Below are positions 54,250 to 55,719 of a stretch of DNA of 64,000 bases, piece by piece. Made by a program: the position numbers and the translations under genes. The stretch lies in the NCBI RefSeq assembly GCF_009735645.1, contig NZ_CP032550.1, forward strand, positions 2,790,001-2,854,000. The letters run 5' to 3'. Below the pieces are notes generated by a model. That model worked only from the letters and a program-made list of their open reading frames with translations. It had not been told where the DNA came from and made no database searches. How positions within the stretch are numbered: position 1 is the first letter of the stretch; each line of letters opens with the position of its first letter. This stretch comes from Microbacterium oryzae (GTDB taxonomy: Bacteria > Actinomycetota > Actinomycetes > Actinomycetales > Microbacteriaceae).

Positions 54250-54291
54250 GAATAGACCCTAACGCCGACCCCTGACGGCATCCCGGACACC

Positions 54292-54392
54292 GCCCGCGCG
54301 TCGCGCTCACGCCGGCACGTGGGGCCTCCCGCGCGTCGCGCTCACGCCGGCGGGTGGGCCGCGCGCGGGTCGCGCTCACGCCAGCGGGTGGA
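54292..54392. repeat. Three tandem 34-35-bp direct repeats
   Basis: GTCGCGCTCACGCCGGC recurs at 54300-54316, 54335-54351 and (one mismatch) 54369-54385, each followed by a GTGGG-like stretch. The repeats directly precede the 54397 palindrome in a 365-base gap (54250-54614) that holds no gene. Confidence 0.7.
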
Positions 54393-54396
54393 GCCG

Positions 54397-54474
54397 CCAG
54401 ACGATGTCGTCTCACCGCCGCGACACCGAATGCCCGCAATTCTCGTGTGCGCTCGATGAGACGACATCGTCTGG
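54397..54474 (+). repeat. Palindromic element, copy 1 (boxes the AbiEi-like gene)
   Basis: Perfect 18-base arms (54397-54414 and 54457-54474; arm core GACGATGTCGTC) flank 42 bases with an inner hairpin of ACAC/GTGT and GAAT/ATTC pairs. The same element recurs in opposite orientation at 55597-55666, on the far side of a single gene. The inner sequences align as well, so the two copies share descent rather than only the stem. Confidence 0.7.
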
Positions 54475-54614
54475 TCGCCCTGCGCCCGCCGTCGCGCCCG
54501 CAGTATGCGCCACAGAGGGCCATCGCCGTGTGCACAGCCCGCCTGCTGGCGGCGCGTCGCAGGTCGGTTTTCCTCGAGCGGGATCGGCCAGCGTCTGGAC
54601 GGGAGCATCGGGGG

Positions 54615-55655
54615 ATGGCTGACCTGCGAGTGAACGACGTGCTCCGCCATCTGTGGTCGCGGGAGCGGCTGCGGATCGAGGGTTGGCGCCCCTCGCGCAT
54701 CCAGCAGGCGCTGCGGCGGGGCGACCTCAGGCGGGTTCGCCACGGCTGGTACGTGGTGACGGACTTCTGGGATGGTCTCCACCCGCGCCAGCAGCACCTC
54801 GTCGAGATCGTCGCGGCCGCGTGCGAGATGCGCGGCGGCGGCGTGGTCGTCTCGCACCTCTCGGCGGCCGTCTTGCACGGGTTCCCGCTCGTCGGCGCGC
54901 GCCCGGAGCGCGTGCACGTCACGCTCCCCGGCGAGGTCGGCGCGTCCGGCACCGGCGACGTCGCTCGCCACCGACTGGCTCTCGACGAGGAGGACATCAC
55001 TGTGGTCGACGGCATCCGCTGCACGGGAGTGGAGCGGACTCTCTTCGACGTCGCCCGCAGCGAGCCCGCGGAACGGGCCATCGCCATCCTCGACGCGGGT
55101 CTCGCCGCTGCGGCGCTCGATCATCGCGCGATCGATGAGGAGAAGGAGACCGCCTGGCGCTCGGCGCTCCTTCGGCGGGTGGTCGATGCACGCGGCGCGC
55201 GCGGGCTGCGCCGGGGAGCGTGGCTCATCGGCTTCGCGGACGGCCGGGCGCAGCTTCCCGGGGAGTCACTGAGCCGACTGCAGCTGCACCGCCTGGGCTA
55301 CGCGCCGCGTCTGCAGGTTCCGGTGGCGAATCCCGCGGGCGGGTGGTGGTGGATGGACTTCGCGCTCGACGAGGCGAAGGTCTTCGGCGAGTTCGACGGA
55401 CGGGGGAAGTACCTCGACTCGGAGATGCGGGCCGGGCGCACAGCCGAGGAGGTGGTGCTCGACGAGAAGAGGCGCGAGGACGGCGTGCGCGGCGTGACCG
55501 GCTGGCGCATCGTCCGGTGGGGGATGGCCGAGGTGCGCAGCCCGGACGCGCTCGCCAAGCATCTGGCCGCGTTCCACGTGCCCCTCCCGCCGTCAAACGA
55601 TGTCGTCTCGTCGCGCGCACACGGTATTCAGCGGAAACCCGTGTCCTTTCGGTGA
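54615..55655 (+). CDS. AbiEi-like protein with C-terminal DUF559/PD-(D/E)XK-like domain
   Basis: The product is 346 residues. The N-terminal winged helix ([40 protein letters not shown]) and the [20 protein letters not shown] segment match type IV antitoxin AbiEi-like proteins. The C-terminal part ([35 protein letters not shown]) resembles DUF559-type nuclease folds. No AbiEii toxin gene is adjacent. The last ~20 codons, including the stop, lie within palindrome copy 2, so the repeat supplies the C-terminus. ATG 54615 has GGGAG upstream at loose spacing. Confidence 0.7.
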
Positions 55656-55666
55656 GACGACATCGT
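55597..55666 (-). repeat. Palindromic element, copy 2 (inverted relative to copy 1)
   Basis: Thirteen-base perfect arms (55597-55609 and 55654-55666) are identical in core to copy 1. Read on the minus strand, the loop aligns with the copy 1 loop (GACAC...CCGC...CGTGTGCGC). Its left arm and loop are translated as the end of the AbiEi-like gene. Confidence 0.7.
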
Positions 55667-55719
55667 CTGGTCGCCGGGCCCTGGCCGCTGGGCCCCGGCT
55701 CCCGCGAAGCCCGGGCGAT

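Follow-up and report, generated by a model that had tools for sequence, protein, structure and literature searches.

Among the described sequences closest to the locus considered here are the REPs and REPINs: dispersed, mostly intergenic palindromes, often in inverted pairs, with conserved arms and a variable middle, and with a cognate gene flanked by them (excerpt of PMC3733652). The same excerpt describes CGTC-tagged REPs, mirrored palindrome pairs of which some lie inside genes, and presents them as having no dedicated transposase. On the protein side, MTES_1575 is described as a Vsr-type restriction endonuclease (REase), and such REases as belonging to conflict systems (excerpt of PMC3710099).

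The window, the whole stretch of 64,000 nt of Microbacterium oryzae DNA that was analysed, contains a 78-bp palindromic element on either side of an AbiEi-type gene. Like REPs and REPINs with their RAYT, this element is a dispersed, mainly intergenic palindrome with conserved arms (21 copies in the genome, 18 of them outside predicted genes), and a gene is flanked by it in the same way. It differs in its partner, a winged-helix protein with a probable restriction-nuclease-like part, no Y1 transposase having been found here; in half-site pairs at 19/20 bp; and in its foot, which is CCGCCAG in the 21 copies of the window genome, the GTAG tetranucleotide being absent by eye from the ends of all of them. 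With the CGTC REPs it shares palindromic mirrored pairs, some in genes, and in several relatives within the genus the element starts with CGTCGAG (by eye); the CGTC foot is not seen in the window genome, however, and the window family does have a cognate gene. Miniature inverted-repeat elements (MITEs) and insertion sequences offer a third comparison: in one family of homologues (f21, below) the gene flanks are inverted with a common outer tip, and there are short solo copies, but the gene showed no known transposase domain, target duplications were not seen, and each terminal repeat is itself palindromic.

In the open-licence literature, nothing was found joining DUF559 with AbiEi, REP with Vsr in Actinobacteria, or AbiEi with miniature inverted repeats. 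Papers retrieved for DUF559 and palindromic were off topic by title, and AbiEi with palindromic repeat or endonuclease domain gave only an archaeal genome paper, again by title. The results below suggest a gene-plus-repeat system across actinobacteria that was previously unrecognised.

The AbiEi-type gene and its two flanking elements

The gene lies on the + strand at 54615..55655 (346 aa from an ATG at 54615; searches with the protein used a 341-aa version, from a GTG at 54630), between a YqaJ-like gene and rplJ. Its neighbours are MarR and YqaJ by profile search, and rplA and rplJ as read from the ORF list, which bears out the setting given in a preliminary description of this DNA. That description had placed two copies of a palindrome around this gene and no other, and the pair is real. 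The 5′ copy (54397..54474, exactly as first proposed) is ~140 bp upstream of the start codon, and its outer arms are at 54398..54413 (- strand) and 54458..54473 (+ strand); the 3′ copy (55593..55670, slightly longer than the 55597-55666 first proposed) has them at 55594..55609 (- strand) and 55654..55669 (+ strand). No strand is assigned to either copy as a whole. The arm 16-mer, GAGACGACATCGTCTG, is matched with 0 mismatches at 54398, 54458, and 55654, and with one mismatch at 55594.

Homologues terminate about where the element begins in the window gene, and the 3′ copy adds the last 20 codons; it had been read correctly as translated, and is so likewise in the strain M. oryzae ZSM5. The two copies match as claimed, their designation as inverted being apt only in part: identity is 75.6% with one copy reverse-complemented and 70.5% directly, and the term has little meaning here because the element is itself nearly palindromic. 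By eye, it also contains a direct half-site repeat (AGACGA, in copy A1 at columns 3 and 22). Separately, three direct repeats of ~35 bp each (GCGTCGCGCTCACGCCGGC...) occupy 54290-54398 and run up to the 5′ element; this block is missing in M. oryzae ZSM5.

The encoded protein has the AbiEi-type N-terminal region of the AbiE type IV toxin-antitoxin systems (PADLOC E=1.7e-18; Pfam AbiEi_1 E=0.0062, below its cut-off), but it differs from these in having no adjoining AbiEii toxin gene, in its putatively nuclease-like C-terminus, and in its two flanking palindromes with dispersed copies. The C-terminal likeness is to DUF559/MTES_1575-type proteins of the Vsr fold: the E, D, ExD pattern is conserved, and models identify two relatives, L009 and L086, as DUF559. 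Unlike those proteins, that of the window is fused to an AbiEi-type region, has cognate palindromes, and is itself unrecognised by models, its nuclease part finding no match in Pfam. The putative catalytic residues (E212, D243, E254, D256, K260) are invariant over 55 aligned sequences, the 54 relatives in the alignment having been picked from 120 among the matches listed, of 221. By profile comparison the C-terminal half aligns to L086 (probability 88.7), while the comparison with L009 covered the N-terminal half only (probability 16.5); the nuclease link of the window protein rests on these two relatives and one profile comparison. Taken together, the invariant residues, the alignment to L086, and the description of MTES_1575 make a C-terminal restriction-nuclease-like (DUF559/Vsr-type) domain likely. 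Nineteen members are without an NCBIfam family, and no relative was found in the PDB. Homologues of this little-studied gene occur at E<=1e-15 in 101 of 148 genomes of the class, with up to 14 per genome, and at E<=1e-40 in 123 of 198 genomes of the genus, annotated as hypothetical proteins or AbiEi antitoxins.

Since AbiEi models derive from defence systems, and MTES_1575-type Vsr REases are described in conflict systems (same excerpt of PMC3710099), the gene might encode a single-protein defence or restriction-like device, with the nuclease attacking foreign DNA and the palindromes marking or regulating the locus. This seems improbable: no adjacent AbiEii nucleotidyltransferase toxin, methylase, or other defence gene was found beside the window gene (rplA, MarR, YqaJ, rplJ), and the dispersed copies would be left unexplained.

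Dispersed copies and their distribution in close relatives

With <=2 mismatches allowed, the arm 16-mer has 53 matches in the whole window genome (3,040,780 bases), against 0 for the reversed pattern. The matches include 21 full copies, counted as facing arm pairs; in this search, made without a restriction on spacing, every pair has an arm spacing of 60 nt. Chance is excluded by these results. Over the 21 copies, aligned ungapped, conservation is 97% in the outer arms, 93% in the inner half-sites, and 70% in the centre. Eighteen lie outside genes as called by a predictor with a simple codon score, and only three do not: the 3′ copy of the window and two that are read in frame, in L015 and L017. 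Many dispersed copies are 3′ of genes, often shortly past stop codons, and some are inside coding frames.

The two in-frame 78-bp copies (26 codons, no stop; L017:2038-2115 and L015:2003-2080) are both common to M. oryzae ZSM5, and the idea that they are insertions finds no support there. We take the L017 gene, by eye, to be protoporphyrinogen oxidase-like (HemG), with the copy internal, and the L015 gene to be an ABC ATPase, with the copy at the gene end; infA and the L10 leader are likewise presumed assignments, made by eye. A third arm beyond the full element is seen at L003:2110-2125 in the window genome (41 bp) and at another site in M. oryzae ZSM5 (G342:C20:93811-93826, 51 bp).

A perfectly symmetric 78-bp hairpin, found many times shortly past stop codons, could be expected of RNA hairpins or terminators. 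Paired columns of the copies do not compensate, however: 84.5% of cells are paired vs 86.3% in shuffles, with covariation of 0.086 vs 0.111. Nor did an Rfam search place any family near its cut-off, or inspection by eye find a T-run beside the copies. An RNA function was therefore rejected as highly improbable; given the absence of compensation, the constraint on the element looks like that of DNA sites rather than of an RNA stem.

In M. oryzae ZSM5 the gene occupies the corresponding place (88% identity), with the 3′ element present and the 5′ element missing. All of its 11 full copies are at sites common to the window genome, which argues that movement is not recent; it lacks 10 of the 21 copies of the window genome. 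Differences at polymorphic sites span most of the intergenic block, and the blocks that differ from M. oryzae ZSM5 are mostly >78 bp, one of ~1.83 kb including a gene between two elements. That gene, boxed by two 78-bp copies at L018:3014-4843 (G000:C1:2653514-2655342), is presumably an MFS transporter from its appearance (by eye), and M. oryzae ZSM5 lacks the 1.83-kb block entirely.

A second close relative, G037 (rplJ 98% and YqaJ 90% identical to those of the window), has its YqaJ gene directly adjoining the rplJ leader region. Homology to the window stops at 54285 and restarts at 55716, so the block between (54286..55715, no strand assigned), with the gene and both elements, is without a counterpart there. 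No homologue at E<=1e-40 and no covariance-model match to the element was found in G037; 1.6 Mb of it, nearly half of the genome, contains one arm-like match, ten counterpart sites are all without the element, and neither the model nor the arm search showed a full copy. At L303 and L337, two sites occupied by 78-bp copies in the window genome, G037 has a different repeat, GTTGAGCGAGCGGAGCGAG...CGAAACGTCGCGA (by eye).

Clean empty sites were sought in both relatives, but the blocks differ, without a precise 78-bp junction; no clean 78-bp indel or target duplication was seen at the 8 sites aligned with M. oryzae ZSM5 or the 9 against G037. For the window locus, the comparison of empty sites proposed in the preliminary description thus yields a relative lacking gene and both repeats, but not the clean junctions expected of a cassette. 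Its minimal unit of one gene and two repeats is too narrow, in that 19 of the 21 full copies lie away from the window gene. It had also been said that the element at many sites, with no tie to AbiEi-like genes, would refute it; those 19 copies bear out the first half of this, but a tie of the repeats to the enclosed protein is supported. Nor is the gene conserved at this position in all relatives without repeats, as it adjoins rplJ in only 7 of the 30 loci examined (one of the 30, L257, being too short to tell).

AbiEi antitoxins are known as repressors of their own promoter that bind to inverted repeats. The window protein might accordingly be an autoregulated DNA-binding protein and the elements its operators, with the dispersed copies a regulon or decoys, and with no nuclease action on the element and no mobilisation. 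The copy ~140 bp 5′ of the start codon suits such a role, and the contrast in conservation between arms (0.97) and centre (0.70), with the loss of compensatory changes, fits protein-binding DNA sites. Arguments against it, which lead us to consider it unlikely, are the second flanking copy at the 3′ end of the gene, the many dispersed copies 3′ of genes or in coding frames, the coming and going of copies between close species, and the invariance of the putative catalytic residues in the 55 sequences.

Matched flanks and half-site spacing across homologues

Dyad scans of homologue flanks in the window genome and three others of the genus (G064, G067, G139) found many two-sided palindromes, their type differing from gene to gene. 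Similarity between left and right 350-bp flanks has a median of 26 over 43 loci of the genus (of 50; 7 under 3.7 kb were dropped), vs 11 for far flanks, and 31 of the 43 exceed the largest far-flank control value (17.0). A comparison with the flanks of other homologue loci, harder because related loci share element types, leaves 18 of 43 above its 95% mark of 29. In the class the medians are 47 vs 12 for the control, with 25 of 28 loci (of 29; 1 dropped) above the largest control value (16.5). Matched flanks are thus absent from 12 of 43 loci in the genus and 3 of 28 in the class; both sets consist of the best-scoring matches and were not drawn at random, and the far-flank control windows are largely coding. 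Among 46 window genes, flank similarity is >17 only for the AbiEi-type gene (20.0, or 35 with the whole 3′ copy) and one other (17.5).

Elements of 57 of the 71 loci, those with matched flanks, were searched for 7-mer direct repeats: these are 19 bp apart in 22 loci and 20 bp apart in 9, while any other distance from 8 to 45 bp occurs in <=2 loci each, and shuffles gave <1. The element is thus laid out as two half-sites separated by two helical turns, followed by a spacer and then by their mirror image. Element similarity follows protein similarity, with rho of 0.27 over 57 loci, 0.39 over 32 in the genus, and 0.34 over 25 in the class (p=0.001 each, permutation), a correlation owed in part to the common descent of whole loci; mean protein similarity is 0.69 for the 20 element pairs most alike, vs 0.22 overall. 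Gene and element co-diverge, and each gene lineage therefore has its own palindrome. Across the class, gene and palindrome form a cognate pair.

Further pairs are of the same kind. A second gene in the window genome (C1:1602221-1603063), with AbiEi_4 and DUF559 domains, has its own element, of the GGAGGAGATG type, on both sides; this palindrome gives 16 arm matches at 12 places, 9 of them away from the gene, with 0 for the reversed control. In the class family f21 the gene is flanked by inverted repeats whose outer tip reads AATGATCA(C/T)GTT. Terminal inverted repeats as a feature are thus represented by the matched flanks (31/43 and 25/28 loci), and are clearly inverted in f21. Tip counts over 12 genomes are 82, 26, 27, 30, 105, 78, 4, 46, 0, 11, 1, and 26 (highest in G214 with 82, G274 with 105, and G284 with 78), with 0 throughout for the reversed control. 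These genomes have 2 to 6 homologues each; G313 and G329 have 4 and 2, yet 0 and 1 tips. Among the solo copies of f21 are 86-bp palindromes that carry the tip at each end. At five f21 loci (L125, L126, L127, L131, L136), the gene with its inverted flanks is found in one gap between constant neighbours, in several genomes and in both orientations.

A covariance model of the window element has matches at E<=0.001 in 23 of 198 genus genomes, the weakest of which include differing lengths and may in some cases be chance. Genomes G064, G067, G139, G061, and others have elements of equal length (78-79 bp when well matched) and plan with different arms, the arm sequences being alike within each genome. 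A close homologue (E<=1e-40) is present in 20 of the 23 element-bearing genomes vs 103 of 175 others (Fisher p=0.006). Element matches without a close homologue occur in G111, G124, and G153. In G049, G064, and G067 the 78-bp-type element adjoins a homologue of the gene and recurs elsewhere in the genome; in G139 the dispersed element was not seen next to any of five homologues.

Some other enzyme might spread the elements, which would then merely tend to adjoin these genes, for example in common permissive gaps. The position of 18 of the 21 full copies, outside predicted genes, agrees with this, as does the finding, by eye, that the same gaps in relatives can carry other repeats. We think it a poor candidate, since it leaves unexplained the match between the two flanks, the way element type follows protein lineage, and the class-wide 19/20-bp spacing. 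Nor was a RAYT found as partner: a search for the Y1 transposase (PF01797) gave no match in 25 genomes of the genus, including 10 of the 23 element-bearing ones, and was positive in 5 of 14 known control genomes.

A candidate REPIN/RAYT-like pair

The best reading, to which we give a probability of roughly one half, is a pair resembling REPIN and RAYT, in which the winged-helix protein with its restriction-nuclease-like part takes its own palindromes as targets. The AbiEi-type winged-helix part would recognise short half-sites, and the element would offer two of these in direct repeat two helical turns apart, then a central spacer, then both mirrored, an arrangement on which several protomers could assemble symmetrically. 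The C-terminal part may then cut or nick the element, which repair or copying would carry to other places, the gene-bearing copy staying between two elements and solo copies spreading as REPINs do with RAYTs. Binding, cutting, and mobilisation by the protein are what we infer from the pairing; at the sites compared with M. oryzae ZSM5 and G037 there is no direct sign of movement, in the form of a fresh copy or clean junction. A more far-reaching proposal, possible though somewhat doubtful, is that these are self-propagating actinobacterial palindromes, mobilised not by an HUH or DDE transposase but by a protein that combines a restriction-nuclease fold and an AbiEi-type DNA-binding domain, and that each gene lineage has a half-site code of its own and populates its genome with solo copies.

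As interpretation, the preliminary description is upheld in part, namely in assigning the repeats to the enclosed protein: most of the homologous genes examined have matched, lineage-specific flanking palindromes, and G037 lacks the gene and both repeats as one block. The paired palindrome is the first concrete candidate substrate to test for these common homologues, and it bears on the question, posed in the excerpt of PMC3733652, of what spreads palindromic repeats in the absence of a RAYT. If palindromes are indeed mobilised by such nucleases, many of the genes at present labelled orphan AbiEi antitoxins or DUF559 proteins would code for the enzymes of such elements.
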